Shown in pieces: positions 1 through 14,111 of a DNA stretch of 34,597 nt. Source of the DNA: an uncultured Alphaproteobacteria bacterium (GTDB taxonomy: Bacteria > Pseudomonadota > Alphaproteobacteria > Rs-D84); the NCBI GenBank assembly GCA_947053455.1, contig CAMRSV010000007.1, positions 1 through 34,597 on the forward strand, read 5' to 3'. The translations under genes were made by a program, and so were the position numbers. Below the pieces are notes generated by a model that had not been told where the DNA came from, searched no databases, and saw nothing but the letters and a program-made list of their open reading frames with translations. The first letter of the stretch is position 1. Every line of letters begins with the position of its first letter.

Positions 1-38
1 ATGGGTTACTACACCCATGCGCCGGGATTCCCTTTGCG
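1..38 (-). ncRNA. 5' part of a repeated leader RNA (copy F, cut by window edge)
   Basis: Read on the minus strand, the transcript should start near 38 with GCAAAGGG. It continues through GGCGCATGGGTGTAG and closes a 6-bp hairpin, ATGGGT with ACCCAT (13-18 with 1-6), loop GTAGTA. This is nearly base-for-base the start of the leader at 7311-7467, including the 7-nt spacing from TATAAT to GCAAAGGG. The switch and terminator parts and the regulated gene lie beyond the left edge of the window. It is named a leader only by similarity to the complete copies. Confidence 0.6.
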
Positions 39-44
39 GTATGA

Positions 45-72
45 ATTATAGCATATAATTTATAATTTGCAA
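45..72 (-). promoter_or_regulatory. Promoter of leader copy F
   Basis: On the minus strand there is TTGCAA (67-72), a 16-bp spacer and a perfect TATAAT (45-50), placed 7 nt before the conserved 5' end of the leader. The same arrangement precedes the other leader copies. Confidence 0.7.
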
Positions 73-141
73 ATATTTACTGGTTTGCTTCGTTTCACAG
101 GGACATACGCGTGCATTATTAGTGCCAAAAATCAACACAAC

Positions 142-163
142 AAAAAACCCGCCGTTTGGCGGG
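142..163 (-). terminator. Intrinsic terminator after the 93-aa membrane protein gene
   Basis: On the minus strand, CCCGCC pairs with GGCGGG around an AAAC loop and is followed by a run of six T. It lies directly after the stop codon at 171. Confidence 0.85.
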
Positions 164-170
164 GTTTAAC

Positions 171-452
171 TTAACGTACGCGGACTGTTGCTTCATTAAA
201 CAACGATAACCGCGCCGAATCCACAGGTTTAAAACCGTTCGCCTGATTTACCGGAACACATTGCCGACTTTTATTGCCATCATTTTGGTTCTTGTTAGAA
301 ATTAAAGCAATACCACTAATAGTTCCAATAGAAATCAAGAACGTACCAACCAGAACCGCCGGATCAGACGCGATAGCCCAGAAAACACCCTCTATACGAC
401 GCATCATGCGCTTATCAAATGTGGACGTTTTTTTATCCAGTTTCTTATTCAT
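171..452 (-). CDS. Small single-pass membrane protein of unknown function
   Basis: 93 aa. The start is taken at the ATG at 452 because AGCAGG lies 8 nt upstream; an in-frame ATG farther upstream has no such site and falls in the promoter-proximal leader. The N-terminus is Lys/Arg rich (MNKKLDKK to about residue 30). One hydrophobic segment follows (about 40-62, containing AVLVGTFLISIGTISGIAL), then a short polar tail with one Cys. The basic N-terminus suggests it faces the cytoplasm. It is a single-gene transcript: a strong promoter at 488-516, a terminator at 142-163, and divergent orientation from tig. No family was recognised. The coding case rests on the start signal, the promoter and the terminator rather than on homology. 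Confidence 0.6.
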   Translation of the reverse strand: MNKKLDKKTSTFDKRMMRRIEGVFWAIASDPAVLVGTFLISIGTISGIALISNKNQNDGNKSRQCVPVNQANGFKPVDSARLSLFNEATVRVR

Positions 453-487
453 ATTTATACCTGCTTTTTGGTTTATTTGCACGCCAA

Positions 488-516
488 ACTTTACACGACA
501 CTGCTCATTTTGTCAA
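488..516 (-). promoter_or_regulatory. Sigma-70-type promoter of the 93-aa gene
   Basis: Minus strand: consensus TTGACA (511-516), 17-bp spacer, TAAAGT (488-493). The same TAAAGT -10 appears before leuS. Confidence 0.7.
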
Positions 517-544
517 CACAAATAATTTTAGGTTAAGTTTGATA

Positions 545-572
545 TTGCGTTTACAAAAAAACCGTGTATAAT
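545..572 (+). promoter_or_regulatory. Promoter of tig
   Basis: TTGCGT (545-550), 16-bp spacer, TATAAT (567-572), followed by AGGGGA (595-600) before the ATG at 606. The TTGCGT -35 is also used by two of the leader RNAs. Confidence 0.7.
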
Positions 573-605
573 CACACCGCAATTCATATTTTTTAGGGGA
601 AAAAC

Positions 606-1919: not shown

Positions 1920-1926
1920 CACCAAA

Positions 1927-1954
1927 CAAAAGCATGCCGCACGGCATGCTTTTG
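1927..1954 (+). terminator. Hairpin between tig and thyA
   Basis: CAAAAGCATGCC pairs perfectly with GGCATGCTTTTG around a 4-nt loop. The T-run is only four long, so it may be a weak or partial terminator that lets some tig transcripts read into thyA. No separate thyA promoter was identified. Confidence 0.6.
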
Positions 1955-1972
1955 TAATAACAGGAGAAAGCC

Positions 1973-2926
1973 ATGAAAGCATACTTGAATATCCTGAGAG
2001 AGATTGTAGAAGCCAAGTCCGATTTGCGCATGAATCGAACCGGCATACCCGACATAGGCATAGGGCATGGCGCCACCTTTGTCCATGATATGTCCACCGG
2101 GTTCCCATTGATTACAACCAAGAAAATGGGGCTGAAAACCATTGCAACTGAACTGGAATTTTTTATACGCGGTATTACGGATAAGAAATGGTTACAGAAT
2201 CGCAATTGCAAAATATGGAATGAATGGGGAAATCCGATAAAGGTTGAACAACGTTATAACGCGGCAGTAGCAAATAAAAAATTATCAAAAGAAACCCAAA
2301 CACAATTACACAATGCCATTGCAGATACGGAACGCGATTTAGGACCAATTTATGGATTTCAATGGCGGCATTTCGGGGGTGAATACGAATGGGACATCAA
2401 TCGCATTGAGAAAAATCCGACTGATAATTTCAATCCATCCAAACCAGGTGTTGATCAAGTTGCCAATGCCATTGATAAACTGAAAAATAATCCAACCGAC
2501 AGACGCATTTTAGTTTCGGCATGGAATCCTGTTGAATTTTCAAAAATGGCGCTACCGCCATGTCACGTTATGCACCAATTAGTTGTGCGCGACGGAAAAT
2601 TAAACCTGATATGGACACAGCGTTCATGCGACATGTTCCTTGGTATTCCGTTTAACATTGCAAGTTATGCATTATTGTTGCTACTGTACGCCAAAGAGGC
2701 AGGATTAAAGCCCGGCATATTAAAGGGAGAATTTCATGATGCCCACATATATAAAAATCACCTGCCGCAGGTAATGGAACAATTGACACGCGAACCATAC
2801 AAGTCGCCAACAGTGGAAATTCCAGACAACAATTGGAACGGTATGCTAAATTGGCAGGCGGACGGCGGTTTTGTATTAAAAAACTATGTCTGCCACGAAA
2901 AACTGCGCGGTGATGTCGCACGATGA
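1973..2926 (+). CDS. thyA: Thymidylate synthase (ThyA type)
   Basis: 317 aa. It converts dUMP to dTMP with methylene-tetrahydrofolate in the cytoplasm. Visible signatures are RTG (R22, phosphate binding), DRRIL (around R177-R178), the catalytic Cys197 in LPPCH, the nucleotide-binding stretch QRSCDMFLGIPFNIASYA, and the C-terminal region with DAHIYKNH. The length is between the short E. coli form (264) and Lactobacillus-type forms, because of an insert at about 90-120. The start has AGGAG at 1962-1966. It sits 53 nt after tig and ends in a symmetric terminator shared with the convergent gene at 2984. No dihydrofolate reductase gene follows in the window. Confidence 0.96.
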   Translation: MKAYLNILREIVEAKSDLRMNRTGIPDIGIGHGATFVHDMSTGFPLITTKKMGLKTIATELEFFIRGITDKKWLQNRNCKIWNEWGNPIKVEQRYNAAVANKKLSKETQTQLHNAIADTERDLGPIYGFQWRHFGGEYEWDINRIEKNPTDNFNPSKPGVDQVANAIDKLKNNPTDRRILVSAWNPVEFSKMALPPCHVMHQLVVRDGKLNLIWTQRSCDMFLGIPFNIASYALLLLLYAKEAGLKPGILKGEFHDAHIYKNHLPQVMEQLTREPYKSPTVEIPDNNWNGMLNWQADGGFVLKNYVCHEKLRGDVAR

Positions 2927-2932
2927 AATAAT

Positions 2933-2957
2933 AATCCCCCGTTTCGCGCGGGGGATT
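2933..2957. terminator. Terminator between thyA and the convergent Cys-rich gene
   Basis: AATCCCCC (2933-2940) pairs with GGGGGATT (2950-2957) around a 9-nt loop. The flanks have short T/A runs; the hairpin could serve both converging genes. Confidence 0.7.
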
Positions 2958-2983
2958 GTTATATAAAATTTGATTTTGCACGG

Positions 2984-3817
2984 TTATTTCGAATACTTAC
3001 ATCCGCCTTCATAAACAAAGGTGCCCGTTGCATCGCTGAATGTTTCATTTTCTGCAATGGCGCAATCTGTTATGGATGCCGCACCATCGCCGAAACCAGA
3101 TGTATGCCCGGGAACCGTTTCACCGGACATATTTACATATGACGGACATTGTTCACGCGAATTATTTGCCACGGAATAATATTCTTCGCCCACCGGTTTG
3201 CATGCGTATCCTGCATTGCCATCGTTGTCTTCATAATACTCATCATATTCGGTATTAATCCAATTTTCCGTTGTATAATAACCGTTTGCACATGTGGCCG
3301 ACTTTATATATTGGGTTCCATAAGAATATTCAATTACATCCAATGAAACATTTTGCCCATGCACAACAAAATTACGATAGCAGGCATCCATATCAACACC
3401 CCAATTATCCGCAGAGCCGGTATTCTCTCCGGTCTGTCGAAAACCGGTCGATAGCGGATAATCAGACGGACATTTAGTACATTCTGTTGAATTTGAATCC
3501 GCAAGATAGTAGCCATCATCACAAAAACATCCAGCCCCCCAGTAGAAACTTATATGCGGATCATCTGCGATATTACACACGCACACATCATCGGCAGGCA
3601 CGTACATATATTTAACCCCGGTAGCATCATCATATGCACGGACACCGCACATTTCCTCGTTCAATTTTATATCCACAGTATAATCTTTCCAAGCTGAACC
3701 GATGCCCCCATCAGCCGGACATTTATTTCCATAATAACCGTCGCACCCAGGAACTGCAAGCGCATCATATGCAATACCACAGCACAAAACAAAAACAATT
3801 ATAAATTTCTTAAACAT
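2984..3817 (-). CDS. Secreted Cys-rich protein of unknown function, leader-RNA controlled
   Basis: 277 aa. The start is taken at 3817 because an export signal begins there (MFKKFIIVFVLCCGIAYDALA, cleavage probably after ALA) and AGGGA lies just upstream. The reading frame stays open farther upstream, but that part overlaps the leader RNA. The mature protein is acidic and rich in Cys, Tyr, Asp and Gly, with scattered modules of the type CPxDYP, CANGYYTTE, CFCDDGYY and CTKCPSD. This resembles short disulfide-bonded surface repeats. No enzyme motif is visible. It probably acts in the periplasm or on the cell surface. The gene stands alone behind leader copy E (3846-4083) and its promoter, and ends at 2933-2957. 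No named family was recognised. Confidence 0.75.
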   Translation of the reverse strand: MFKKFIIVFVLCCGIAYDALAVPGCDGYYGNKCPADGGIGSAWKDYTVDIKLNEEMCGVRAYDDATGVKYMYVPADDVCVCNIADDPHISFYWGAGCFCDDGYYLADSNSTECTKCPSDYPLSTGFRQTGENTGSADNWGVDMDACYRNFVVHGQNVSLDVIEYSYGTQYIKSATCANGYYTTENWINTEYDEYYEDNDGNAGYACKPVGEEYYSVANNSREQCPSYVNMSGETVPGHTSGFGDGAASITDCAIAENETFSDATGTFVYEGGCKYSK

Positions 3818-3845
3818 TTTTCCCTCTGCTATGTAAATTTTAAGC

Positions 3846-4083
3846 AAAACCGCCAAGGATATGGCGGCCGGGGAGTTCAAAAAATCATAATCGAAAAAAT
3901 GACCCATGTGACCTTTACGCGACAAACGCGCTGTTATATAGTCACATGCTCCCCGGCCATGAATAAATCGGGGCAAAATAATGCGTTTTAACGTACGCAC
4001 TGTGGATGTGGCATGCGTTATGCACATGCCATTTCGATTATGGGCTTTTTGACGACCCCGAACCCAATATCCCTTTGGGTTCA
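3846..4083 (-). ncRNA. Repeated structured leader RNA, copy E, with attenuator-like terminator
   Basis: Minus-strand 5' UTR of the 277-aa Cys-rich gene. P1 is GAACCCAA with TTGGGTTC (4075-4082 with 4060-4067). P2 is a GGG/CCC hairpin whose loop contains CGTCAAA. The variable arm includes GGCATG/CATGCC. In the switch, GGCCGGGGAG (3949-3958) can pair 10 bp with CTCCCCGGCC (3866-3875), or in part with the upstream CCCCG near 3969-3973. An 8-bp helix, CATGTGAC/GTCACATG, lies inside. The terminator CCGCCA/TGGCGG plus TTTT (3846-3867) overlaps the downstream switch strand by 2 nt. This copy is the most diverged in sequence but keeps the same layout as the others. Confidence 0.7.
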
Positions 4084-4089
4084 GTTTTT

Positions 4090-4118
4090 ATTATATCCAA
4101 TGCTAAAATTAAACACAA
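4090..4118 (-). promoter_or_regulatory. Promoter of leader copy E
   Basis: Minus strand: TTGTGT (4113-4118), 17-bp spacer, TATAAT (4090-4095). The predicted start falls at 4082-4083, exactly at the 5' arm of P1. Confidence 0.7.
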
Positions 4119-4142
4119 CCCAAAAAATCCTGTGTATCAAAC

Positions 4143-4171
4143 TTGCAAAAGAGATAAACCGGCGCTACACT
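4143..4171 (+). promoter_or_regulatory. Promoter of the SlyB-like lipoprotein gene
   Basis: TTGCAA (4143-4148), 17-bp spacer, TACACT (4166-4171), with AAGGAG at 4192-4197 before the ATG at 4203. Confidence 0.6.
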
Positions 4172-4202
4172 AAAAAATATAACAAGGAGTTAAGGAGTTA
4201 AA

Positions 4203-4661
4203 ATGAAAAAAATTCTAGCACTATTTATGGCGGCGGCACTTACCGCGTGCGCTGCAAATCTAAATACCGACCGATATGAAACGTCGGCCGCCGGTCAAAT
4301 AAATTCCGTAGCCGAAGGCACCATAATCAATGTTCGCCCGGTTCGCATCGCAACAGAAAACGGCGGCATGGGTACACTTGCGGGCGGTGTTGCAGGCGGC
4401 GCCGCGGGTTCCATGATTGGCGGCAACAATGCGGTAAATGTAATTGGCGCGGTTGGCGGCGCGGTTCTGGGCAGCATGCTAGGCGCAAAGGCACAGGAAG
4501 GCTTGTCTGCGCAAAACGGATATGAATACATAGTAAAACTTAACTCCGGCAAGGCAATTACATTGACCCAGGGAACAGATGTTAAATTTTCCGTCGGACA
4601 AAAAGTTTATGTCTTGGACGCAGAATATGGTGAACGCGCCCGAATAATTGCCCGCGATTAA
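4203..4661 (+). CDS. Outer-membrane lipoprotein, glycine-zipper SlyB/Pcp-like
   Basis: 152 aa. The N-terminus is a lipoprotein signal (MKKILALFMAAALTAC) with lipobox LTAC and modified Cys16. About residues 58-100 form two Gly-rich hydrophobic hairpin segments (GGVAGGAAGSMIGG, then GAVGGAVLGSMLGA), the glycine-zipper pattern of the SlyB/Pcp/17-kDa antigen family. A C-terminal region follows with YEYIVKLNSGKAITLTQG and VGQKVYVL, also as in SlyB. It is probably anchored in the outer membrane and affects envelope integrity, as known for the family. It is a single-gene transcript with its own promoter and a 15-bp bidirectional terminator. Confidence 0.85.
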   Translation: MKKILALFMAAALTACAANLNTDRYETSAAGQINSVAEGTIINVRPVRIATENGGMGTLAGGVAGGAAGSMIGGNNAVNVIGAVGGAVLGSMLGAKAQEGLSAQNGYEYIVKLNSGKAITLTQGTDVKFSVGQKVYVLDAEYGERARIIARD

Positions 4662-4674
4662 ATATGCGACGCAC

Positions 4675-4711
4675 AATAAAAATCCCGGCCAATGATGCCG
4701 GGATTTTTATT
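4675..4711. terminator. Strong symmetric terminator
   Basis: AATAAAAATCCCGGC pairs over 15 bp with GCCGGGATTTTTATT around a 7-nt loop. It ends the lipoprotein transcript before the rpsA promoter. Confidence 0.9.
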
Positions 4712-4719
4712 GAAAAAAC

Positions 4720-4748
4720 TTGATTTTCAAAATAATAGCCGCTATAAT
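4720..4748 (+). promoter_or_regulatory. Promoter of rpsA
   Basis: TTGATT (4720-4725), 17-bp spacer, TATAAT (4743-4748). The predicted start near 4755 lies downstream of the in-frame ATG at 4692, which therefore cannot be the rpsA start. The 5' UTR would be about 90 nt. Confidence 0.75.
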
Positions 4749-4847
4749 TTGTGTGATTTTGCGGGTGGGCGCAATTTCAATCCGATTAACCCCACAAGTC
4801 CTTTGAAATCTGAATTCAAACGGCAAACTTTGTATGAACACTTTTCT

Positions 4848-6536
4848 ATGAAAGATTTATCCAAAGATTTATTTAATCCCGTATCCGGCGAAGACTTTGT
4901 CAAAATGTTTGATGAAAACTATGGCAAACAGGAAACTTTGCAGGGTTACGCAACCAAGGGCACAGTCAAAGATATTCGCGGCGATTTCGCGATGGTTGAC
5001 GTGGGTCTGAAATCCGAAGGCCGCGTTCCGTTAAAAGAATTCGGCGCATCTGTGCCAAACATTGGCGATATTATCGACGTGTTTGTAGAACGCTATGAAT
5101 CCCGTGAAGGAACGGCAGTTCTGTCCTATACCAAGGCGCGTGCTGAAAAAGCATGGAAAGACCTGGAAAAAACTGTTGCAGAAGGTATTGACCCAGAAGG
5201 CACGATTATCGACGTTGTCCGCGGCGGTTATACCGTTGACCTGGGCGGCGTATTCGCATTCATGCCGTCAAGCCAGGTTGACCACAAACCGGTTCGCGAT
5301 GCAAAATCGCTGATTGGGCTGAAAGACAAATTCCGCGTATTGAAAATGGATGCATTGCGCACAAATGCAATTGTTTCCCGCCGCGCGATTCAGTCTGACT
5401 CCATCGCCGCCGCACAGAAAGAAGCGATGAAGAACATCACACTTGGCGCAGTTATCGAAGGTACCGTCAAAAACATCACCGATTACGGCGTATTTATTGA
5501 TTTGGGCGGTATTGACGGTTTGCTGCACGTGACAGACTTGTCTTGGAAACGCGTAAATCACCCGCGCGAATTGGTTCACGTTGGTGAAAAAATCAAGGTC
5601 AAGGTTATTCAGTTTGACCCGGAATCACACCGTATTTCCCTGGGTGCGAAACAATTGGAAGATGACCCGTGGGATACCGCATCACGTGCATTCAATGTCG
5701 GCGACACGGTATCGGGAAAGGTTTCATCCATCACCGATTACGGCGCATTTATCGACCTGGGCAACAACATCGAAGGTTTGGTTCATATGTCCGAATTGTC
5801 ATGGACAAACAAGAACATTCACCCAAGCAAAGTTCTGCAGAACGGTCAGGATGTAAACGTTGTTGTTTTGGGTATCGATCAGGACAAACGTCGTATTTCT
5901 CTGGGCTATAAACAGCTGCAACCGAATCCGTGGAAAGAATTTGCCGAAACACACAATGTTGGCGATATAGTCACCGGTCCGATTAAGAACACAACCGAAT
6001 TCGGTCTGTTCGTTGCACTGACCCCGGAATTGGACGGTATGGTTCACATTTCCGACCTGTCATGGAACAAACTGGACGAAGAAGAACTGAAAAAGTTCGT
6101 CCGTGGCCAGGAAGTGACAGCAAAAATTCTGGACATCAATCCGGAAAAAGAACGCGTCACACTGGGTATCAAACAATTGACCGAAGGCGCGGACAGCAGC
6201 AATGTTTCCGTTAAAAAGGGCGCAGTTGTTTCCGGTACAGTTTCCGAAGTGACACCCGATGAACTGATTCTGGCATTGCCGGGCGATGCAAAAGGCATCA
6301 TCCGCCGCACAGATTTGTCCCGTGAAAAATCCGAACAGGACACGAACAAGTTCAAAGTCGGCGACACGGTTGAAGCGTCTGTTGTTTCCGTTGAAGGTAA
6401 CACGGTCAAATTGTCAATCCGTGCACTGCAGGTGACGCTGGAAAAGCAGGCGGTCAAAGAATACGCCAACCAGGCCGATAGCGGTTCTGTATTGGGCGAC
6501 ATCTTGGGCGCAGCGATTGAAAACAGCAAAAAATAA
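4848..6536 (+). CDS. rpsA: 30S ribosomal protein S1
   Basis: 562 aa, normal length for S1. Six S1/OB-fold repeats run through the protein. Recurrent signatures include GVFIDLGGIDGLLHVTDLSW, GAFIDLGNNIEGLVHMSELSW and RISLGYKQLQPNPW. S1 helps the 30S subunit capture mRNA. The start is set at 4848 (MKDLSKDLF) because it lies after the promoter and begins the conserved protein. There is no Shine-Dalgarno motif before it, only AC/T-rich sequence; rpsA messages are known in other bacteria to start without a strong one and to be autoregulated through the 5' UTR. The gene is followed by a clear terminator. A cmk gene often precedes rpsA, but is absent here. Confidence 0.96.
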   Translation: MKDLSKDLFNPVSGEDFVKMFDENYGKQETLQGYATKGTVKDIRGDFAMVDVGLKSEGRVPLKEFGASVPNIGDIIDVFVERYESREGTAVLSYTKARAEKAWKDLEKTVAEGIDPEGTIIDVVRGGYTVDLGGVFAFMPSSQVDHKPVRDAKSLIGLKDKFRVLKMDALRTNAIVSRRAIQSDSIAAAQKEAMKNITLGAVIEGTVKNITDYGVFIDLGGIDGLLHVTDLSWKRVNHPRELVHVGEKIKVKVIQFDPESHRISLGAKQLEDDPWDTASRAFNVGDTVSGKVSSITDYGAFIDLGNNIEGLVHMSELSWTNKNIHPSKVLQNGQDVNVVVLGIDQDKRRISLGYKQLQPNPWKEFAETHNVGDIVTGPIKNTTEFGLFVALTPELDGMVHISDLSWNKLDEEELKKFVRGQEVTAKILDINPEKERVTLGIKQLTEGADSSNVSVKKGAVVSGTVSEVTPDELILALPGDAKGIIRRTDLSREKSEQDTNKFKVGDTVEASVVSVEGNTVKLSIRALQVTLEKQAVKEYANQADSGSVLGDILGAAIENSKK

Positions 6537-6557
6537 TTCACAAATATGAATTATGGC

Positions 6558-6589
6558 ATTCCCGGCACACTTGCCGGGAATATTTTTTT
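6558..6589 (+). terminator. Terminator of rpsA
   Basis: ATTCCCGGC pairs with GCCGGGAAT around a 6-nt loop (6558-6581), followed by seven T. Confidence 0.92.
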
Positions 6590-6667
6590 ATGCTAAAATT
6601 ATAGACAATGGCAAAAAAAGTTTTACCATACATATTTGTAAAACAACCAAAGGGAAATTAAACCACC

Positions 6668-7222
6668 ATGAAAAAAGATATGATAATTCTTATGGGCGGC
6701 CAAGGCGTAGGCAAGGGCACGTTTTCAAAAATGCTGCGTGAACGGAGTGATTATAACTATATTGAAACGGGCGCAATGTTCCGTTCTTTACCCAGCGATA
6801 GTGAAATTGCAAAAATCATCGCACGCGGCGAATTGGTACCCGATGCGGAACTGTTCAAATTGGTTGAATCCGTAGTAACTGATGACAAAGACATGCTGAT
6901 TGACGGATTTCCGCGCACAACCGCACAGGCCGAGTGGCTGGTTCATGCATTCGCAGACAAATATAACGTTCACGTAATCTATCTAAACGTACCAGAAGAA
7001 GTAATGCTGGCTCGTATACAGAAACGTATTGATGCCGGTGGCGGCCGCGCAGATGACGCGGATGCGGCGGCTGTACGACGCAGACTGGACACATTCTGGA
7101 ACGTGACCATGCCGGCGATTGAATGGCTGCGCGGGGCGACGGGAATTAAATTTTCCGATGTTGATGTGACGGGCGAGGTTGGCGACAACTTTAATCGCAT
7201 ACTTGCGGCCATGGAAAAATAA
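6668..7222 (+). CDS. adk: Adenylate kinase, short type
   Basis: 184 aa. It interconverts ATP plus AMP and two ADP. The P-loop is GGQGVGKGT (residues 10-18). The AMP-binding part includes ETGAMFRS and the DGFPRT motif (about residue 80). The late Arg-rich lid/core region contains RIQKRIDAGGGR and AVRRRLDTFW. The insert that forms the long LID domain of E. coli Adk (214 aa) is missing, as in other short bacterial adenylate kinases. GGGA lies upstream of the ATG at 6668. The gene is monocistronic with its own terminator at 7225-7248; no convincing promoter was fixed in the A/T-rich gap after rpsA. Confidence 0.9.
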   Translation: MKKDMIILMGGQGVGKGTFSKMLRERSDYNYIETGAMFRSLPSDSEIAKIIARGELVPDAELFKLVESVVTDDKDMLIDGFPRTTAQAEWLVHAFADKYNVHVIYLNVPEEVMLARIQKRIDAGGGRADDADAAAVRRRLDTFWNVTMPAIEWLRGATGIKFSDVDVTGEVGDNFNRILAAMEK

Positions 7223-7224
7223 TC

Positions 7225-7248
7225 AATCCCGCGAAATGCGGGATTTTT
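7225..7248 (+). terminator. Terminator of adk
   Basis: AATCCCGC pairs with GCGGGATT around GAAAT, followed by TTT then GTTT. Confidence 0.9.
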
Positions 7249-7275
7249 GTTTGCGGCGCGGCAATCCAGTAATTA

Positions 7276-7304
7276 TTTGCATCCGACATTTTTTATGATA
7301 TAAT
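7276..7304 (+). promoter_or_regulatory. Promoter of leader copy A
   Basis: TTTGCA (7276-7281), 17-bp spacer, TATAAT (7299-7304), 7 nt before the conserved GCAAAGGG at 7312. Confidence 0.7.
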
Positions 7305-7310
7305 ACACAT

Positions 7311-7467
7311 TGCAAAGGGAAACCGGCGCATGGGTGTAGAAACCCACAATAGGAAACATTTACTCCAGTTTGGCTGGAGGCGTGCGATATATATAAATAA
7401 GCACGACTATACTATTGTAGTTTCTAACCTCCAGCCGTTTGGTTTTTGCCAAACGGTTTTGTTTTTT
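7311..7467 (+). ncRNA. Repeated structured leader RNA, copy A, upstream of an HTH gene
   Basis: This is the most compact copy. P2 is TGGGT/ACCCA (7331-7335, 7342-7346) with loop GTAGAA. P3 is CTCCAG/CTGGAG (7363-7368, 7374-7379). The competing P4 is GGCTGGAGG (7372-7380) with CCTCCAGCC (7428-7436), 9 perfect pairs. Inside P4 are two hairpins: CGTGC/GCACG (7381-7385, 7401-7405) and ACTATA/TGTAGT (7406-7411, 7416-7421). The terminator CCGTTTGG/CCAAACGG (7435-7442, 7449-7456), followed by TTTT, G and six T, overlaps P4 by 2 nt. P3 and P4 share the strand CTGGAG, so they exclude each other. Termination would be expected when P4 is not formed. Confidence 0.78.
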
Positions 7468-7494
7468 AATTAACCAAAAACATGGAGAATAAAA

Positions 7495-7875
7495 ATGACA
7501 ATGAAACTAAACCAGCGGACAGACGACACCGCACCGCGGGCATATCAATTGCAGCGTGCGGCAATTGGTAAATTTTCAAAGAAATTGCCGCCATCATTAT
7601 TGCTGTATCGTGCGCGTGAACTATTGGGTGTGTCGCGTCAACAAATGGCGCAGCATATGGGCATACCATCCAGTATGTTAAGCAAGTTTGAATATGGAAA
7701 ACTGCGTATGCCGAACAGTTTTCTGATAAAGATATTTATGTTTGGTCTGGATTTCTGGGCGGATGGTATTTATTGGGTTACAACAGACGAAGACCCGCGT
7801 ATAACAAAACATAAACAGAAAATTGAACGGCGGGCTAATTTGGCGGCAACAGGTGACGCGCAACGCGTCCAGTAA
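7495..7875 (+). CDS. Xre-type helix-turn-helix DNA-binding protein
   Basis: 126 aa. The central Cro/C1-type HTH spans about residues 38-85 (ARELLGVSRQQMAQHMGIPSSMLSKFEYGKLRMPNS), with helix 2-turn-recognition helix in SRQQMAQHMGIPSSMLSKFE. The flanks are basic and there is no obvious ligand-binding domain, so it is probably a small dimeric repressor or activator. The start at 7495 has GGAG at 7483-7486; a second ATG two codons later is possible. It is the only regulator-like gene found behind the repeated leader RNA. It may be co-controlled with, or control, the secreted-protein genes that carry the same leader; that link is inference. Confidence 0.8.
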   Translation: MTMKLNQRTDDTAPRAYQLQRAAIGKFSKKLPPSLLLYRARELLGVSRQQMAQHMGIPSSMLSKFEYGKLRMPNSFLIKIFMFGLDFWADGIYWVTTDEDPRITKHKQKIERRANLAATGDAQRVQ

Positions 7876-7884
7876 TCGTAAAAC

Positions 7885-7909
7885 AATCCCCCAAAACGGG
7901 GGATTTTTA
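7885..7909 (+). terminator. Terminator of the HTH gene
   Basis: AATCCCCC pairs with GGGGGATT around AAAAC, followed by further T. The convergent corA gene ends at 7941. Confidence 0.88.
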
Positions 7910-7940
7910 ATACCGTTGTATATTGCCGCATTTACGGGCA

Positions 7941-8825
7941 TCATATAATGCGTTTGCACATCGCGCCAAACATCGCATATCCAACCAACAATGCCATTAT
8001 CAGCACAAATATCACAATCGCCGTATTATCATACTGCGCCAGTGGCAGTTTCATGTTCATTCCATAAAAACCAACAATCACCGTCGGCGCCATCAAGATA
8101 ATGTTCCACATTGTCAAACGATTAATATACGTGTTTGAATCCATATTAATAACACTTTCAAATGTTTCCTTGATGGATTTTAGCATTTTGCTGTAACTGG
8201 TCACAACCTCGGTGGCCTGGGACAATTCAATACGCGCATCTTCGGCCAGTTCTGCGGCTTCGTCAGTCTTTACAAATCCGCGCACCTTTTCCAATTTATC
8301 CAACACCGCAACATTGCCCTTTATTCCCGCCATGTAAAGTGTGTAACTATTTTCAACCTCTAGCAACGCCATCAGTTCTTTTTTGCGAATGCGTTCCTGC
8401 AACGCCTTTTTTGATTCCAACACACGGCGGTTTAACTGTTTCAAAAACCGCAGATATGATTCCGCAATATAATAAATTATATTTAAAATAAATTCTTCAC
8501 GTGTGGTTTTTTCATCCTTTTTTATCTTGTCTAGAATATCGCACCGCTTGCGGCAAACGGTAATAACACGACCACCCGAATAAATGATAGACAGCGGTTC
8601 TGTGTGCCACAATGTATCCGTTTCCCGGTTCACTATGGGGAAACGAACAATTATAACCTTGTAATCGTCTTCAACCTCGAACCGTGGCTGTTCGTCGGGG
8701 TCTAAAATGTCGGAAATCGTGTCCTCGTCAATTTTGTATTCTGTCTGCAGTCTTTCAAAATCCGCATGATCAGGATTGCCAACATTGACCCAAGAGAAGG
8801 TTTTTAATTTTTCTGTGACAAACAT
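7941..8825 (-). CDS. corA: CorA-family magnesium/divalent metal channel
   Basis: 294 aa. The N-terminal cytoplasmic domain is acidic (MFVTEKLKTFSWVNV, then DEDTISDILDPDEQPRFEVED). A long helical stalk follows (about 120-225). Two transmembrane segments lie at the C-terminus; the first ends in the signature YGMN (residues 254-257, FYGMNMKLP). The protein ends in a basic tail. CorA forms pentamers in the inner membrane and lets Mg2+ in. GGGAG precedes the ATG at 8825, and the promoter is at 8878-8906. It is convergent with the HTH gene. The GMN motif makes the family assignment firm; the exact metal cannot be told. Confidence 0.92.
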   Translation of the reverse strand: MFVTEKLKTFSWVNVGNPDHADFERLQTEYKIDEDTISDILDPDEQPRFEVEDDYKVIIVRFPIVNRETDTLWHTEPLSIIYSGGRVITVCRKRCDILDKIKKDEKTTREEFILNIIYYIAESYLRFLKQLNRRVLESKKALQERIRKKELMALLEVENSYTLYMAGIKGNVAVLDKLEKVRGFVKTDEAAELAEDARIELSQATEVVTSYSKMLKSIKETFESVINMDSNTYINRLTMWNIILMAPTVIVGFYGMNMKLPLAQYDNTAIVIFVLIMALLVGYAMFGAMCKRII

Positions 8826-8877
8826 GGCAATCTCCCTTTTTTATAAGACGCGGGTGCGCGGTAAATTAATACGCATT

Positions 8878-8906
8878 ATTCTATACCCAAAAAAACAAAA
8901 TTGCAA
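8878..8906 (-). promoter_or_regulatory. Probable corA promoter
   Basis: Minus strand: TTGCAA (8901-8906), 17-bp spacer, TAGAAT (8878-8883). Confidence 0.5.
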
Positions 8907-8990
8907 TTTATTCTGGGAATAAAAATTCATACTTTACATAAATCCCGTATGATAAAATAAAACCGAAAAATTAATAAGGAGGTATCAACC

Positions 8991-9107
8991 ATGGCAAACA
9001 AAACACCACAGACAAATTCATTCACAATTGCACACTATATACTGCTGTTTCTGGTTGTGGCGCTATGCATTGGAATTATTGCATGGGTTATGGTTCACGC
9101 AAAATAA
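8991..9107 (+). CDS. 38-aa single-transmembrane peptide
   Basis: Very small gene with an excellent start signal: AAGGAGGT ends 7 nt before the ATG. The product starts with a polar stretch (MANKTPQTNSFTIAH). About 20 hydrophobic residues follow (YILLFLVVALCIGIIAWVMV), then HAK. It therefore looks like a one-pass inner-membrane peptide, with the N-terminus probably cytoplasmic or short. It lies between corA (divergent) and tRNA-Pro; the tRNA has its own promoter starting 8 nt after the stop. No toxin partner or antisense RNA was identified. Coding is supported by the ribosome-binding site and the membrane helix, not by homology. Confidence 0.65.
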   Translation: MANKTPQTNSFTIAHYILLFLVVALCIGIIAWVMVHAK

Positions 9108-9114
9108 AAAACAA

Positions 9115-9143
9115 TTGTAATTTTGAATATTATCAGCTATATT
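9115..9143 (+). promoter_or_regulatory. Promoter of tRNA-Pro
   Basis: TTGTAA (9115-9120), 17-bp spacer, TATATT (9138-9143), 11 nt before the mature tRNA 5' end. Confidence 0.6.
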
Positions 9144-9154
9144 AGCCCACATGT

Positions 9155-9231
9155 CGGGGTGTAGCTCAGCCTGGTAGAGTACTTGCATGGGGTGCAAGGG
9201 GTCGCAGGTTCGATTCCTGTCACCCCGACCA
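9155..9231 (+). tRNA. tRNA-Pro(GGG)
   Basis: 77 nt with encoded CCA. The acceptor CGGGGTG pairs with CACCCCG. The D arm has GCTCAGCCTGGTAGAG. The anticodon stem CTTGC/GCAAG encloses loop ATGGGGT, anticodon GGG at 9089+100 (9189-9191). The A32-U38 loop pair is typical of proline GGG tRNAs. The T arm is CAGGTTCGATTCCTG. It is followed by a terminator and by a tandem repeat containing its own 3' end. Confidence 0.95.
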
Positions 9232-9580
9232 AAAAATTCAATCGGCCGAAGTGCCGATTTATTTTTTGGATTTCGGGTGCGGAAGAGAACCTGCGACACG
9301 CAGGGTCGTCTGCAAAGTTGGCGAAAACAAGTATTTACGCAGTTTGAGCCTTACGAGCGGAAAGGGGCCCGCCGCAACATTTGCGGTGGGAATTACATTC
9401 CTGTCACCCCGACCAAAAAATTCAATCGGCCTTATGCCAGTTTATTTTTTTGGATTGCGGGTGCAAAAGAGTACCTGTGGCGCGCAAGTTCATCTGCGAC
9501 GTTGGCAAAAACAAGCTTCTGTGCGGTTTGAACCGTATAAGCCAAAGGTGTCAATTGGGTATAAATATCAATCACATATT
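9213..9580 (+). repeat. Diverged tandem duplication of the tRNA-Pro 3' end and its downstream sequence
   Basis: Unit 1 runs from about 9213 to 9396 and unit 2 from about 9397 to 9580, offset 184 bp. Both begin ATTCCTGTCACCCCGACC, the last 18 nt of the tRNA apart from its final A, then AAAAAATTCAATCGGCC. They stay recognisable through TTTATTTTTT, GGATT, CGGGTGC, TCTGC, GTTGGC, AAAACAAG and GTTTGA. The second copy cannot form a tRNA. The block fills most of the gap before acpS; open frames across it are treated as chance. Confidence 0.85.
9240..9267 (+). terminator. Terminator of tRNA-Pro
   Basis: AATCGGC (9240-9246) pairs with GCCGATT (9253-9259), followed by a T-rich tract. In the second repeat unit the matching hairpin is degraded. 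Confidence 0.75.
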
Positions 9581-9650
9581 TTATGCTTGCACGAATCGGA
9601 AAAAAGTTATTAGTATGCGCATGTAAATTCAAATATACAGGGGGCATTTC

Positions 9651-10028
9651 ATGATTATTGGCATTGGAATCGATTTGGTTGAATGCGGTCGTTTCTTGGA
9701 TTGGTCCGCGTTCAAAAAACAGCGCATATTTACAAAAAAAGAATTGGAATATGCCGATGCAGATAATGCGAACGCGGAAAAACATTTGGCAAACTTCTGG
9801 GCCGCACGCGAGGCTTGCTTAAAAGCACTTGGAACAGGATTTGGTGACGACATTGCGTTTTCCGACGTATCGGTTGTACATAACGACGCGGGTCGTCCGG
9901 AACTGTTAATAGCCGGCGGCGCCAAGGCCGCATTAAAAGAACGCGCCGGTGGCGATGCTCGTATTCACCTGTCTATAACAGACCAAGATGATTATTCCGC
10001 TGCAATCGTGGTTATTGAAAAAGAATAA
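9651..10028 (+). CDS. acpS: Holo-[acyl-carrier-protein] synthase
   Basis: 125 aa, standard AcpS length. It transfers 4'-phosphopantetheine from CoA to apo-ACP in the cytoplasm, which fatty-acid and lipid A synthesis need. Signatures: N-terminal GIGIDLVE with the metal-binding Asp8, then FWAAREACLKALGTGF (about residues 49-64) with the metal-binding Glu, and the C-terminal HLSITDQDDYSAAIV. GGGGG at 9640-9644 precedes the ATG. It is a lone gene between the tRNA repeat and a symmetric terminator. Confidence 0.95.
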   Translation: MIIGIGIDLVECGRFLDWSAFKKQRIFTKKELEYADADNANAEKHLANFWAAREACLKALGTGFGDDIAFSDVSVVHNDAGRPELLIAGGAKAALKERAGGDARIHLSITDQDDYSAAIVVIEKE

Positions 10029-10030
10029 TT

Positions 10031-10054
10031 AAAAACCGCCAAATGGCGGTTTTT
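10031..10054. terminator. Symmetric terminator between acpS and the convergent Cys-rich gene
   Basis: AAAAACCGCC pairs with GGCGGTTTTT around AAAT, giving a T-run on either strand. Confidence 0.9.
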
Positions 10055-10056
10055 AA

Positions 10057-10731
10057 TTAATTTTTATATGAACAATTTTCGGTTAATGTGTATTGCCCAA
10101 CCGTATCGTTTATATTAGTTCCTGATGGAAGGTAACAACCAGTCTTTAGCGTAGCCCCCGCGTTAGATGTACCATTATCCGGACATTTGGAACACCCGGA
10201 TGCACCATTGATTGATGTACCGTAATATCCCGCCGCACAACGATATTTTGTTGAAACCTTACATTCACCACATTCACATGTTCTAAAAATTTGTTTTTCA
10301 TAACCCGTGCCAAACGCAACCCATGCATCACTGGTGCAATTTGTACATGCCGGACATGAACATACACGCACAGCATTTTCAATATTCGTCTGATCAGATG
10401 AATTTAGAATATAAGTGCAAACTTTTGTTTTATCGCCATAATACGTATTACTTAAACTAACCCGTGGGGTAAGCGTACCTTTACCCTTGCACTTTGTGCA
10501 AGATGTTACATATGCAAAATTTTTCTGACTATAAGTTTTATAACTTGTGTCATTGATTGTCTTGGCACATGCCCAGGTGGCCTCGGCACAATTAGGAATC
10601 ATATAGTAAGATGAGTTTGCAGGCATGTCAGACGGACATTCAAAAAAACTACACGGCTCACCCATAGAATCTTGCGGGACTAATACCACCAAAGAAACAA
10701 GCATTAAATATATTCTTATAATTTTTTTCAT
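10057..10731 (-). CDS. Secreted Cys-rich protein, paralogue of 11104-11763
   Basis: 224 aa. The start at 10731 (MKKIIRIYLMLVSLVVLV) gives a signal peptide cleaved near SMG-EPC, and GGAG lies 8 nt upstream. The mature part has over 20 Cys in short motifs (CTKCKGKG, CSCPACTNC, CECGECK), then a terminal module with YRCAAGYYGTS, GCSKCPDNGTS and TGCYLPSGT, ending in ENCSYKN. The terminal module matches the neighbour at 11104-11763 closely (YRCAANYYGSS, GCRACPNGG, SCYLSTGT, GNCYYKQ), so the two are paralogues. The pattern suggests a disulfide-stabilised periplasmic or surface protein; no enzymatic residues are visible. It is transcribed alone from the promoter at 10983-11011 through leader copy C. 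Confidence 0.75.
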   Translation of the reverse strand: MKKIIRIYLMLVSLVVLVPQDSMGEPCSFFECPSDMPANSSYYMIPNCAEATWACAKTINDTSYKTYSQKNFAYVTSCTKCKGKGTLTPRVSLSNTYYGDKTKVCTYILNSSDQTNIENAVRVCSCPACTNCTSDAWVAFGTGYEKQIFRTCECGECKVSTKYRCAAGYYGTSINGASGCSKCPDNGTSNAGATLKTGCYLPSGTNINDTVGQYTLTENCSYKN

Positions 10732-10756
10732 CTCCAATTCTCCATACAATATCAAA

Positions 10757-10975
10757 CAAAAAACCACCAAAATTTTTAGTGGTCAGGAGGTTGAATACAA
10801 TTGACAGAATTGTGCTGCGTATTTTTTATATTTCGCAAGCCCTCCTGACCATGGGTCAGGAGTTTATTTTTCGCCAAAACAATAAAAATTGCATATAAGT
10901 ATATATGCCAAATAAATATTATGTTTTAGCGCTGTCATAGAGGTATTCACACCCCACCAACGGAAAGCCCGTCAG
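10757..10975 (-). ncRNA. Repeated structured leader RNA, copy C
   Basis: Minus-strand 5' UTR of the 224-aa gene. P1: ACGG/CCGT. P2: GGGGT/ACCTC (10951-10955 with 10940-10944), loop GTGAAT. The variable arm closes with CGCTAAAAC/GTTTTGGCG and has an inner GCATATA/TATATGC. P3: CTCCTGACC/GGTCAGGAG with a 3-nt loop (10854-10862, 10842-10850). P4: GGTCAGGAGG (10841-10850) with CCTCCTGACC (10781-10790), 10 perfect pairs. Inside P4 are TGCG/CGCA and ACAATT/AATTGT hairpins. The terminator ACCAC/GTGGT plus six T (10757-10783) overlaps P4 by 3 nt. Confidence 0.78.
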
Positions 10976-10982
10976 CATAAAA

Positions 10983-11011
10983 ATTATATATAATTTTGAA
11001 AAAACACGCAA
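10983..11011 (-). promoter_or_regulatory. Promoter of leader copy C
   Basis: Minus strand: TTGCGT (11006-11011), 17-bp spacer, TATAAT (10983-10988). Confidence 0.75.
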
Positions 11012-11078
11012 GAAAAATTCCATAAAATAGAACCTGATTACAAAATATGTACGAAACATTCATAAATTTTTTATCAAT

Positions 11079-11099
11079 AAAAAACCGCCCAGCGGCGGT
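11079..11099 (-). terminator. Terminator of the 219-aa Cys-rich gene
   Basis: Minus strand ACCGCC/GGCGGT with a 4-nt loop and a T-run. It separates the two tandem leader-gene units, so copy C is not simply read through from copy D. Confidence 0.85.
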
Positions 11100-11103
11100 T
11101 TTA

Positions 11104-11763
11104 TTACTGTTTGTAATAACAATTACCGGTATATTGATAAGAACCAGTCACATCAGAGGCACTAGTTCCAGTGGATAAATAACAACTTGTTATTGATGTG
11201 CTGCCGGCTTGGGATTTGCCGCCATTTGGACATGCACGGCAACCTGATGTACCATTAGTGGAACTGCCGTAATAATTAGCTGCGCAACGATATTGATAGT
11301 TTTTTTTACATACCCCGCAAACACAATACGCAACCTGTTTTTTTTGATAACCTGTATTACCTGCCGTCCAACTGCCATCTGAACAGTCTGAACATGATGG
11401 CGCAACACATTCATACATCCCAGTACTGCATGTAGCACCCTTATATGTTATGTCAATAGCTTTCCTTGTCGCGGCACCAGAACATGTATTGCACGATTTA
11501 AATCCAACATACGCACTACCATATAGTGAAAATGCCAAGTCAGAAGATAAAGCTGGATTGTTTACCCCCGGCAAAAGGAAAAATGTAGGCGTTGAACTAT
11601 AATTAGAACAACATGACGGAGCAGATACATAACTGCCCACCAAAGTATTTAAGCTGACCCCATCATTAGTTCGAGATATTTCCATACATCTGGCCGCAAA
11701 AGCCCCATTCATAGGCAGCATCTGCATCATAACCGCCCCAATTACAAACATTGTTTGCTTCAT
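11104..11763 (-). CDS. Secreted Cys-rich protein, paralogue of 10057-10731
   Basis: 219 aa. The signal peptide MKQTMFVIGAVMMQMLPM continues to a likely cleavage at AFA-ARC. GGAG lies 8 nt before the ATG at 11763. The mature protein holds a short central Cys array (APSCSDCSDGS, YCVCGVCKKN) and the same C-terminal module as its neighbour: YRCAANYYGSS, GCRACPNGGKSQAGS, SCYLSTGT, YTGNCYYKQ. The N-terminal halves differ much more than the C-terminal module, as if they evolve faster. A cell-envelope or surface location is inferred from the signal peptide and Cys content. Transcription is from 12005-12033 through leader copy D. Confidence 0.75.
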   Translation of the reverse strand: MKQTMFVIGAVMMQMLPMNGAFAARCMEISRTNDGVSLNTLVGSYVSAPSCCSNYSSTPTFFLLPGVNNPALSSDLAFSLYGSAYVGFKSCNTCSGAATRKAIDITYKGATCSTGMYECVAPSCSDCSDGSWTAGNTGYQKKQVAYCVCGVCKKNYQYRCAANYYGSSTNGTSGCRACPNGGKSQAGSTSITSCYLSTGTSASDVTGSYQYTGNCYYKQ

Positions 11764-11784
11764 TTTTACTTCTCCAATGATTTC

Positions 11785-11997
11785 AAAGAAAACCACCAAA
11801 AATTCGGTGGTCAGGAGGTTGAAGACAATTGATAGAATTGTGCTGCGTATTTTTTATATTTCGCAAGCCCTCCTGACCAAAGATCAGGAGTTTGTTTTTC
11901 GTCGAAAGAATAAAAACAGCGCAAAATACGCGCCATAAATAACAATTCCGACGCTACCATAGAGGTCTTCACACCCCACCATCAGAAAACCCGACGG
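11785..11997 (-). ncRNA. Repeated structured leader RNA, copy D
   Basis: Nearly identical to copy C from P3 to the terminator. P2: GGGGT/ACCTC with loop GTGAAG (11973-11977, 11962-11966). The variable arm closes with CGTCG/CGACG, replacing the C-copy pairs with different but still complementary bases. P3: CTCCTGATC/GGTCAGGAG, with one G-U pair. P4: GGTCAGGAGG (11869-11878) with CCTCCTGACC (11809-11818). The terminator ACCACC/GGTGGT (11806-11811 with 11792-11797) overlaps P4 by 3 nt and is followed by TTTTCTTT. Confidence 0.78.
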
Positions 11998-12004
11998 CAT
12001 AAAA

Positions 12005-12033
12005 ATTATATATATAAATAAGAAAACACGCAA
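12005..12033 (-). promoter_or_regulatory. Promoter of leader copy D
   Basis: Minus strand: TTGCGT (12028-12033), 17-bp spacer, TATAAT (12005-12010), the same hexamers as copy C. Confidence 0.75.
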
Positions 12034-12098
12034 GAAAAATCCCCCCGAACTTTATACCTGTTAACAAGGGGATAGATGAAACAAAAAGTAAAGATATT

Positions 12099-14111
12099 TT
12101 ATATCATAGGGTCAAAACATTCACCATCTACGCAACACGCAACGGTGCCACCACCCATATCGGTAAATGTTTCACCCGGACAGCATCCATACATATCAGG
12201 CATACCGCCGTTTGCACAGGCTGATGCTTCGTCAGAGGCAGGCTTATTTGCCGCATTATATTCCGATGCCGAAACAAACATTTTTTCAGGACTGGATACG
12301 CCATATGCCGGTTTGTTCACAACGGGTTCTGATACAACCGGGGCAATGGGCACCGCAACCGGTACTGGTTCAATTGTTGTTACGACCGGTTCCGGAATTT
12401 CATTCGGTACCGACACAGTGGATTCAATTTCTACAGATTCAACCGGTTCCGCAGGTACATCCGGCACAAAGTCATTAACCACAGGTTCCACCATAACAGA
12501 CGGGGTCGGTTCTGGCATAATTTCGTCGGCCTGTGGTTCTGTAACCGCCACAGATACAATAAACGGATCTGGTGCCACATTTTCCACCACCGTATCCGGC
12601 ACTGCAATGTCTGGTGTTGGCGCAACCGCCGGTTCCTTTGGCGCCATAGATGCCACTGACGCCGCCAAGTCAGGCGCGCTGTCACCAGTCGATTTCTGAT
12701 ACAGCCACAGTGTGAATATCGACATTATTATCAACATAATAAGCATAATATAATACAACAGTGTGGGTTTGGTGTGCGCACCAACTGTCCCCGTGGCCGG
12801 GGCTGTACCCGTAATTGGTGAAACAGGACGCAAAGCAGATGTAGCCGGCGCTGGGGAAATTTCCGGCATTGGTGCAGGCGCCGGTTCCGGTGCAACAACC
12901 GGTCGCGGCATAAATTCTGTTACAACAGTTTCAGATTCAGGCCCAGCATCCACCGCCGTTATAGAATCAAGAACCGGTGCAACACTAATCGGTGCAGGCT
13001 GCACGTTATTAACAACATTGTTATTTTCAGTCGGCGGCGTAAATGAAAGCGGTTGTACCGGTGCCGGGGTGTCATCATAAGAATTTTGAACAGCAACCGG
13101 GGCAGGTTCAGAAACCGCGCGCGCCTGGGGCACGGGTTCAACCGACGAAACATCAAAATCTATCGGTTTGAACGCTATCTCTTCATTCAAAATTTCTGGA
13201 TCTTTGTCAAATAAAGGTTTTACTTCTTCGTCGGCCATATTTTCCGCCTTTTGTTCTGATGTTATTATTGGTTCATCCGGCACCACGGGCGCGTCAAACG
13301 ATATAATTTCTGTAAATTTTGGCGCAATTTCCGCCGGTAAATTATCACGCGTTACAACGACTTCGTTCGCGGGCGCTATCATAATATCATGTGATGCCGC
13401 ACCCCCCGCAACAGGAATGCGTTCCAGAATCTCACGCGCACGCTGTGCGTCATCTTCTGCGGCAACTAGTCGTTTCTGCGCATTTGCAAGACGCTTTTTT
13501 GTACGCTTTATTTTTTCATTGGTTGCATCTATCTGCGCCTCTGTTCGTAAAATCTTTGACGCTGATTGCTTGGTCGGTTCACGGCCAACATCTTTGCGCT
13601 GACGCGACAGCTTTGTTTTTAATTCGCGTGTTTTCGTTTCCAGATCACCAATGGCCTCATTGGCCTTTACAATTGTTTCGCGCGTATTTGCGGCAATGAA
13701 TTCCGCGCTTTCCAAACGTTCAGAGGCGGCGCGCCGTACAGACGCATTTCTAAATTCCGCCAACGCAAGCAACGCATCGTCAATTTCGTTTCCAGATTCA
13801 AATCTTGCAATCAAATCATCATATATGGCAAGGCCGGAATACTCTATATCTAATTTTTGATATTTATTGTCCTTTTTCGGACGCACCGTTTCTAAATCAA
13901 CACCAAAATCATTGGCCAGCACATCATCCCATTTACGGTCACCCACCGGGTTTAGAACCAGCAAAACATTGGGCTTGTCAGCGGATGTCGTAGAATCAAT
14001 TACAAAGGCCAATTTATGACGCGCATCGTAATATGCACGAAACGCATTGCCGGCAATTTCATAGTCGCGCGGCGTTAAAATTGGCAAATTATTCTCTCTC
14101 TCGGACGGCAT
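12099..14111 (-). CDS. Large single-TM protein with coiled coil, Pro/Val-rich stalks and Cys-rich tail
   Basis: 670 aa, no named family recognised. About residues 1-130 form a mixed folded domain (PRDYEIAGNAFRAYYDARHK onwards). About 135-235 is a charged, heptad-like coiled coil (KTRELKTKLSRQRKD, IKRTKKRLANAQKRL). About 250-440 is low-complexity Pro/Ala/Val. One transmembrane helix lies near 450-472 (LLYYIMLIMLIIMSIFTLWL). A second Pro/Val/Glu-rich stretch follows. The last 40 residues are Cys-rich (CANGGMPDMYGCCPGE, then CCVDGECFDPM). With no signal peptide, the topology is probably N-in, with the Cys tail in the periplasm. GGGG precedes the ATG, 15 nt after gcrA, so it is likely in one operon with it. 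Length and composition suggest an envelope-spanning scaffold; that is inference. Confidence 0.8.
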   Translation of the reverse strand: MPSERENNLPILTPRDYEIAGNAFRAYYDARHKLAFVIDSTTSADKPNVLLVLNPVGDRKWDDVLANDFGVDLETVRPKKDNKYQKLDIEYSGLAIYDDLIARFESGNEIDDALLALAEFRNASVRRAASERLESAEFIAANTRETIVKANEAIGDLETKTRELKTKLSRQRKDVGREPTKQSASKILRTEAQIDATNEKIKRTKKRLANAQKRLVAAEDDAQRAREILERIPVAGGAASHDIMIAPANEVVVTRDNLPAEIAPKFTEIISFDAPVVPDEPIITSEQKAENMADEEVKPLFDKDPEILNEEIAFKPIDFDVSSVEPVPQARAVSEPAPVAVQNSYDDTPAPVQPLSFTPPTENNNVVNNVQPAPISVAPVLDSITAVDAGPESETVVTEFMPRPVVAPEPAPAPMPEISPAPATSALRPVSPITGTAPATGTVGAHTKPTLLYYIMLIMLIIMSIFTLWLYQKSTGDSAPDLAASVASMAPKEPAVAPTPDIAVPDTVVENVAPDPFIVSVAVTEPQADEIMPEPTPSVMVEPVVNDFVPDVPAEPVESVEIESTVSVPNEIPEPVVTTIEPVPVAVPIAPVVSEPVVNKPAYGVSSPEKMFVSASEYNAANKPASDEASACANGGMPDMYGCCPGETFTDMGGGTVACCVDGECFDPMI

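Follow-up and report, generated by a model that had tools for sequence, protein, structure and literature searches.

The 34,597-nt stretch of DNA analysed here (the window) corresponds to contig C7 in a 915,330-base, 21-contig genome (96% complete) of an uncultured alphaproteobacterium. It carries six copies of a structured leader RNA, and the genes listed behind them encode secreted proteins and a small helix-turn-helix protein (Table 1). An earlier note on the window had placed six copies in these 34.6 kb, on both strands, and all of them were indeed present at the positions it gave. Four full copies, 7311-7467(+), 10757-10975(-), 11785-11997(-) and 33307-33490(+), form one subfamily, and the copy at 3846-4083(-) is diverged: it was missed by R1, our covariance model of the RNA core, and found by the Rfam model RF02221. 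The sixth copy is cut at the contig end. Contig C18 and the window begin within one and the same RNA copy, at an identical base (window 1-38), and several further contigs end in or near copies, so that the family breaks the assembly.

Table 1. Leader RNA copies in the window, their parts and the genes behind them.
Feature	Positions	Strand	Evidence and remarks
Sigma-70-like promoter, TTTGCA-17-TATAAT	7276..7304	+	10/12 match, extended -10
P1, 5' hairpin at transcript start	7312..7329	+	Sequence; equivalent to first hairpin of phage P1 c4 leader and RF03163
P2 hairpin, loop with target a (7337-7343, TAGAAAC)	7331..7346	+	a pairs with a' 7420-7426
Target b (CAATAG)	7347..7352	+	Pairs with b' 7412-7417; copy-specific helix
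P3a, sequestering strand, partner P3b	7363..7368	+	P3a:P3b in 40/45 MFE folds
P3b, 5' strand of core stem	7371..7380	+	R1 core match 7371-7437; covariation
P4 hairpin, conserved AU-rich loop	7381..7405	+	Two-sided changes in 5/5 pairs
P7 hairpin (ACTAT..ATAGT type), presents antisense element b' (7412-7417)	7406..7421	+	Covariation, pairing
Antisense element a' (GTTTCTA), complement of a	7420..7426	+	Pairing
P3c, 3' core-stem strand, whose end forms the terminator foot	7428..7437	+	P3b:P3c covariation; terminator overlap
Intrinsic terminator hairpin, then T tract	7435..7456 (scan: 7433-7458)	+	Terminator scan
Gene behind 7311-7467 copy: small HTH_3 (XRE/Cro-type) protein	7495..7875	+	ORF; Pfam HTH_3 24.5 bits, cut-off 23
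Cut copy, 5' end only	1..73	-	Promoter 73-45, P1 37-19, P2 with a 11-5; remainder lost at contig end
Diverged sRNA-Xcc1-type copy	3846..4082	-	RF02221 37.6 bits, E 4.5e-5; a/b - a'/b' complementarity
Parts of the 3846..4082 copy	P1 4082-4060, P2/a 4059-4042, b 4042-4033, core 3958-3866, terminator 3867-3846	-	
Gene behind 3846-4082 copy: secreted protein, start placed at 3817	2984..3817	-	ORF; signal peptide by eye
Copy, R1 68 bits	10762..10976	-	P1 10976-10956, a 10949-10943, b 10937-10932, core 10850-10781, terminator 10784-10762
Gene behind 10762..10976 copy: secreted Cys-rich protein	10057..10731	-	ORF; signal peptide by eye; no Pfam above cut-off
Copy, R1 68.3 bits	11791..11997	-	a 11971-11965, b 11959-11954, core 11878-11809, terminator 11812-11791
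Gene behind 11791..11997 copy: secreted Cys-rich protein	11104..11763	-	ORF; no Pfam above cut-off
Copy, R1 54.8 bits	33306..33490	+	P1, a 33333-33339, b 33345-33351, core 33400-33467, terminator 33464-33490

The promoter and fixed 5' end described in the earlier note were borne out by the wider set of copies: the -35/-10 score was 9.5 against a background of 7.1, reaching at least 9/12 in 39 of 47 copies (background 7%), and the distance from the -10 box to element a was constant at 32-34 nt (47 copies), the box ending 33 nt upstream of a. The two 5' hairpins, the variable arm, the terminal switch and the intrinsic terminator were likewise present, with pairings that go beyond the first description. 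In the core, a 9-bp P3b:P3c stem encloses the hairpins P4 and P7. R1 was built on this core, with 68 positions, 19 pairs and 42 sequences, all from the own genome, and the core covariation is overwhelming. Standard pairs filled 97.7% of the core pair cells, two-sided changes occurred in 11 of the 19 pairs and in 124 cells, compared with 28 ± 8 in shuffles (0 of 500 as high), and the covariation score was 0.458, versus 0.189 ± 0.012 for shuffles and below 0.08 for slid controls. RNAalifold, unprompted, gave the same core fold. The variants seen at the innermost P3 pair are GGAGG/CCTCC, GGAGT/ACTCC and GGAGA/TCTCC, a pattern that supports P3c rather than P3a as the partner of P3b. The P4 loop gains insertions in other families.

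Element a, 7 nt in the P2 loop, has its complement a' just 5' of P3c, while element b, directly after P2, has its complement b' in the P7 loop. The b:b' helix contained a mean of 6.9 Watson-Crick pairs (4.3 with permuted partners) and extended to at least 6 bp in 41 of 48 copies, as against 4.8 of 48 after permutation. A joint fit of a and b was obtained for 36 of 48 copies with themselves and for 12 of 2256 non-self combinations, several of the latter matching an upstream unit to its downstream tandem neighbour. The position of a in the own genome was set in part by how well it matched a', so the a:a' count there is biased, and the unbiased joint tests are those on 29 canonical RF02221 loci, on a2b2 and on 29 class loci, described below. 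The self-limited joint fit indicates that specificity is private to each copy. The earlier note had suggested a large regulon. Many genes indeed carry the leader, but a single shared signal is doubtful since the pairing parts are copy-private, which suggests many separate self-circuits instead.

A terminator scan detected intrinsic terminators at the three full copies of the main subfamily within positions 1-12100, and a terminator appeared in 41 of 45 MFE folds. T runs behind the core were mostly 5-7 long in the own genome, versus mostly 1-3 at canonical RF02221 loci. P3b has two alternative pairings, P3a:P3b and P3b:P3c. Folded without pseudoknots, about 40 of 45 leaders adopted as their MFE the closed form, comprising a:a', b:b', P3a:P3b and the terminator, and forcing P3b:P3c cost a median of 8.6 kcal/mol (45 leaders). 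P3c shared at least 2 nt with the terminator arm in 38 of 47 copies (mode 4); since P3b:P3c and the terminator overlap by just 2-5 nt in most copies, their mutual exclusivity could be partial. Overlapping strands (1:2, 2:3, 3:4) followed by an intrinsic terminator are also the arrangement of trp-type attenuators, whereas here antisense pairing, and not the ribosome, seems to decide. No conserved leader peptide was seen by eye in the own leaders.

An iterated nhmmer nucleotide profile yielded 51 copies of at least 13.9 bits over all contigs (915 kb), and R1 also gave 51 copies at E<=6e-4 in the whole genome. Six extra copies of a second type, found by RF02221, lie at C1:189038, C5:41687, C2:48059, C17:1339, C12:22787 and window 3858-3958, and two cut copies at contig ends are additional to the 51 and the 6. 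At a total of about 57 copies, or roughly one per 16 kb, the system would rank with the densest known forms of RNA-based control relative to genome size. Seven sets of copies stand in tandem. At C2:5136-5516, C2:57878-58520, C8:13561-14148 and C1:123898-124249, each tandem unit has its own promoter, and the upstream a'/b' fits the a/b of the next unit in three of these sets and, by eye and with a G-U pair, in the fourth, as if an upstream tandem RNA could act on the downstream leader.

The covariance search of genome and relatives proposed in the earlier note returned many more matches, and not only in the own genome: R1 matched 129 of 142 searched genomes of the order Rs-D84, with 1 to at least 35 copies per genome; 35 was the ceiling of that search, and the counts in relatives are lower bounds because of such filter caps. 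Exact pattern matches in named genomes came exclusively from MAGs, whose labels were Alphaproteobacteria, Rickettsiales, proteobacteria or just 'bacterium'; among them was Ca. Enterousia, the genus indicated by these name matches. Ca. Enterousia belongs to the order Rs-D84 and has reduced genomes from animal guts (PMC12306168). Another large expansion was seen in a 1.6-Mb genome of the same class (G329), with 38 RF02221 matches.

In most own-genome copies, a gene starts 10-30 nt after the unit. Half of the genes downstream of the leaders encode secreted proteins, with signal peptides judged by eye, and half encode small HTH-like regulators, among which Pfam recognised small HTH_3 and HTH_31 proteins; a trypsin-like protease, a GT8 glycosyltransferase and outer-membrane barrels were also found. 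The secreted Cys-rich downstream proteins gave no Pfam match above cut-off. They include a large family (window 10057-11799 and many genome loci) with a common C-terminal RCAAGYYG...C..CP..G....CY domain, itself without Pfam above cut-off. Genes behind the RNA in other families encode secreted, pilin-like and HTH proteins. A GRSMVEMLG-like prepilin N terminus opens the product of the downstream gene in families f95 and f53 (L193, L194, L200, L208, L209, L217), and short (50-90 aa), helical-looking non-HTH proteins lie behind the RNA at L110, L152, L171 and L187.

The earlier note had held that the RNA fits no known class. This does not stand: the 3' half matches RF02221 (sRNA-Xcc1), a family known from Xanthomonas integron cassettes, upstream of symE, with one copy above the curated cut-off, and the layout is that of the phage P1 C4 immunity region. 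The Rfam comparison that the note had proposed thus led to a known family. The sole own-genome copy above the RF02221 gathering cut-off of 53 bits lies at C1:189038-189127 (55.5 bits); the window copies all fall below it, with 37.6 bits at 3858-3958 and no match at 7311-7467, and a window Rfam scan at gathering scores returned nothing but tRNAs. At lower thresholds, the RF02221 match in diverged copies coincided exactly with the P3b-P3c core (L215, 45.5 bits; L204, 45.4; L201, 43.5; window 3858-3958, 37.6), and RF02221 also matched two R1 copies of the own genome. The R1 and RF02221 alignments agree in topology, with the 9-bp stem, a hairpin with an AU-rich internal loop, a second hairpin and then about 6 nt. 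Conversely, R1 found canonical RF02221 loci outside the class (best E 6e-8; 7 of 29 at E<0.003). An Rfam scan of one strong R1 copy alone gave chance-level matches (Trp_leader, rimP) only, so the Rfam link is visible only in diverged copies. No Rfam riboswitch match appeared in the scans run. Because the models match in both directions and the a/b - b'/a' layout is common, the family is a branch of the C4/sRNA-Xcc1 antisense RNA superfamily (RF02221, RF01695, RF03163).

RF01695 (C4; gathering cut-off 45 bits) itself had no match in the own genome, and R1 scored at noise level against the phage P1 C4 RNA; the link to C4 proper therefore runs via RF02221 and the common layout. RF01695 scored 22-26 bits at RF02221 sites in other Alphaproteobacteria, and the P1/P2 region of L215 weakly matched RF03163 (C4 target a1b1). 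The annotated phage P1 record lists a promoter, a1 (7 nt), b1 (8 nt), C4 (77 nt) and then a2 and b2 before icd. Our family has in common with phage P1/P7 C4 the order of parts, the target sizes and the a'/b' positions in a three-way core, and, as in a C4 module, an a1b1 target complementary to a' and b' lies upstream on the same transcript. Phage P1 differs in two ways, since it has a2b2 and lacks a terminator between C4 and icd, the own family being the opposite in both. Indeed, a2b2 over the ribosome-binding site was seen in just 2 of 38 own copies (permuted, 1.1%). Without tandem units, a2b2 showed no enrichment near own gene starts, and the apparent b' excess there probably comes from tandem neighbours. 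In most copies P3b starts with GGT or GGC, resembling the GGW/GGC RNase P site of C4-type RNAs (PMC5320573). The Group 1 sRNAs of Acinetobacter baumannii comprise many C4-like RNAs per genome, with variable a', processed from longer transcripts (PMC5320573), but they were presented as sRNAs with unknown targets and not as attenuating leaders before secreted or HTH genes.

With sRNA-Xcc1 the family shares the core of P3b, P4 with its AU-rich internal loop, P7, a' and P3c. Published work describes sRNA-Xcc1 as a stand-alone sRNA (PMC2996969); the RNA is named a trans-acting sRNA in the title of a 2011 paper and was placed upstream of symE in a 2025 survey (PMC12444791). Among 29 RF02221 loci drawn across the phylum, nearly all have a hairpin located some 70-110 nt upstream of the core, and its loop together with its 3' flank matches the a'/b' of that core; the joint a/b score was 14.1, versus 6.7 ± 0.8 (max 8.2) after permutation. 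An a2b2 site at the downstream start site or ribosome-binding site was found in 18 of the 29 (permuted, 4.8%), two of the genes being a Bro-N antirepressor and SymE by Pfam and others looking, on inspection by eye, like antirepressors or small proteins of phages. In distant Alphaproteobacteria, from about a dozen families and mostly with 1.1-2 Mb genomes, a/b was retained in 29 of 29 loci, with a joint score of 14.9 versus 5.4 ± 0.9 after permutation, and many of these loci have a T tract. Canonical RF02221 loci thus mostly have a2b2 at the downstream gene start and no T tract, whereas the own branch has an intrinsic terminator without a2b2. The lack of a2b2 and the long T runs of the own copies suggest that the control point in this branch seems to have moved from translation start to transcription termination.

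We therefore propose, with a probability of about 0.6, that the leader is a C4/sRNA-Xcc1-type self-targeting antisense RNA turned transcription attenuator. One promoter-driven 5' leader would carry both the antisense RNA and that RNA's own target. Pairing of a/b with a'/b' within the transcript would favour the form with P3a:P3b and the terminator, and the gene would be off; formation of the C4-like core (P3b:P3c) would occupy the terminator foot and let transcription run on. RNase P-type cleavage may release cores, which could bind a/b on other transcripts of the same gene or on the next tandem unit and thus shift the balance, turning the gene either on or off. The regulatory sign, trans action, processing and attenuation decision are what we infer here.

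The same module may work with the opposite sign, a reading that we hold to be quite possible though short of probable: the C4-like fold with a/b contact would be the default, and a free core would bind a/b in trans and cause termination, as negative feedback. Such a course has precedents, since termination in phage P4 immunity is caused by the CI RNA, which base-pairs with seqA/seqC in its own leader (PMC4825925), and C4 is annotated as a repressor in the phage P1 record. P4 CI RNA and Gifsy-1 IsrK also share with our family a leader-borne RNA that acts on its own transcript in a termination/read-through choice (PMC4825925), a likeness in the way of working only. Folding, however, favours the closed, terminating state without a trans RNA, and a trans competitor is thus expected to open the leader. 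It is unlikely that the unit simply makes a terminated, trans-acting sRNA for other mRNAs, the gene behind being incidental. The stand-alone description of sRNA-Xcc1 (PMC2996969), the many processed C4-like sRNAs of A. baumannii (PMC5320573) and the unit's own promoter and terminator would fit such a role, but the match of a'/b' to a/b within one transcript is far above chance in the own genome, in other families and at canonical RF02221 loci, and most units stand 10-30 nt before a gene start.

A metabolite riboswitch, in which the P4 loop and a P2 pseudoknot would form a pocket for one ligand governing the whole regulon, is improbable. Its appeal lies in the aptamer/terminator look, the conserved AU-rich P4 loop and the dozens of copies before genes of similar function. 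Against this, the elements that vary and covary are copy-private pairing arms, contrary to what a conserved ligand pocket would show, the P4 loop tolerates insertions in other families, and the core is homologous to an sRNA family whose loci have a1b1 and mostly a2b2 targets. We give very little credence to a MITE-like mobile repeat that spreads with its own promoter and has no regulatory role: although tandem arrays, contig ends within copies and copy numbers that differ strongly between genomes (from 1 to at least 35) recall one, the copies are diverged, keep covarying pairs and lie on the coding strand at a short distance before genes.

On the attenuator reading, a device of phage-immunity type seems to have been turned into a control system spanning the whole tiny genome of a gut bacterium; in the literature searched, we found no regulatory RNA in the Rs-D84 gut lineage. 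Tentatively, these bacteria may possess, genome-wide, dozens of antisense attenuators that recognise themselves and are orthogonal to one another. Each would serve a single surface or regulator gene as a private, immunity-like channel and could hold heritable on/off states, and the widely scattered sRNA-Xcc1 RNAs may be the same self-targeting device in other bacteria, misread as free trans-acting sRNAs. One module would link phage immunity RNAs, integron sRNAs and the bacterial secretome. sRNA-Xcc1 would thereby gain a concrete, testable target, namely its own leader and the start of the next gene, and the copy-specific pairing would provide a natural set of orthogonal attenuators.
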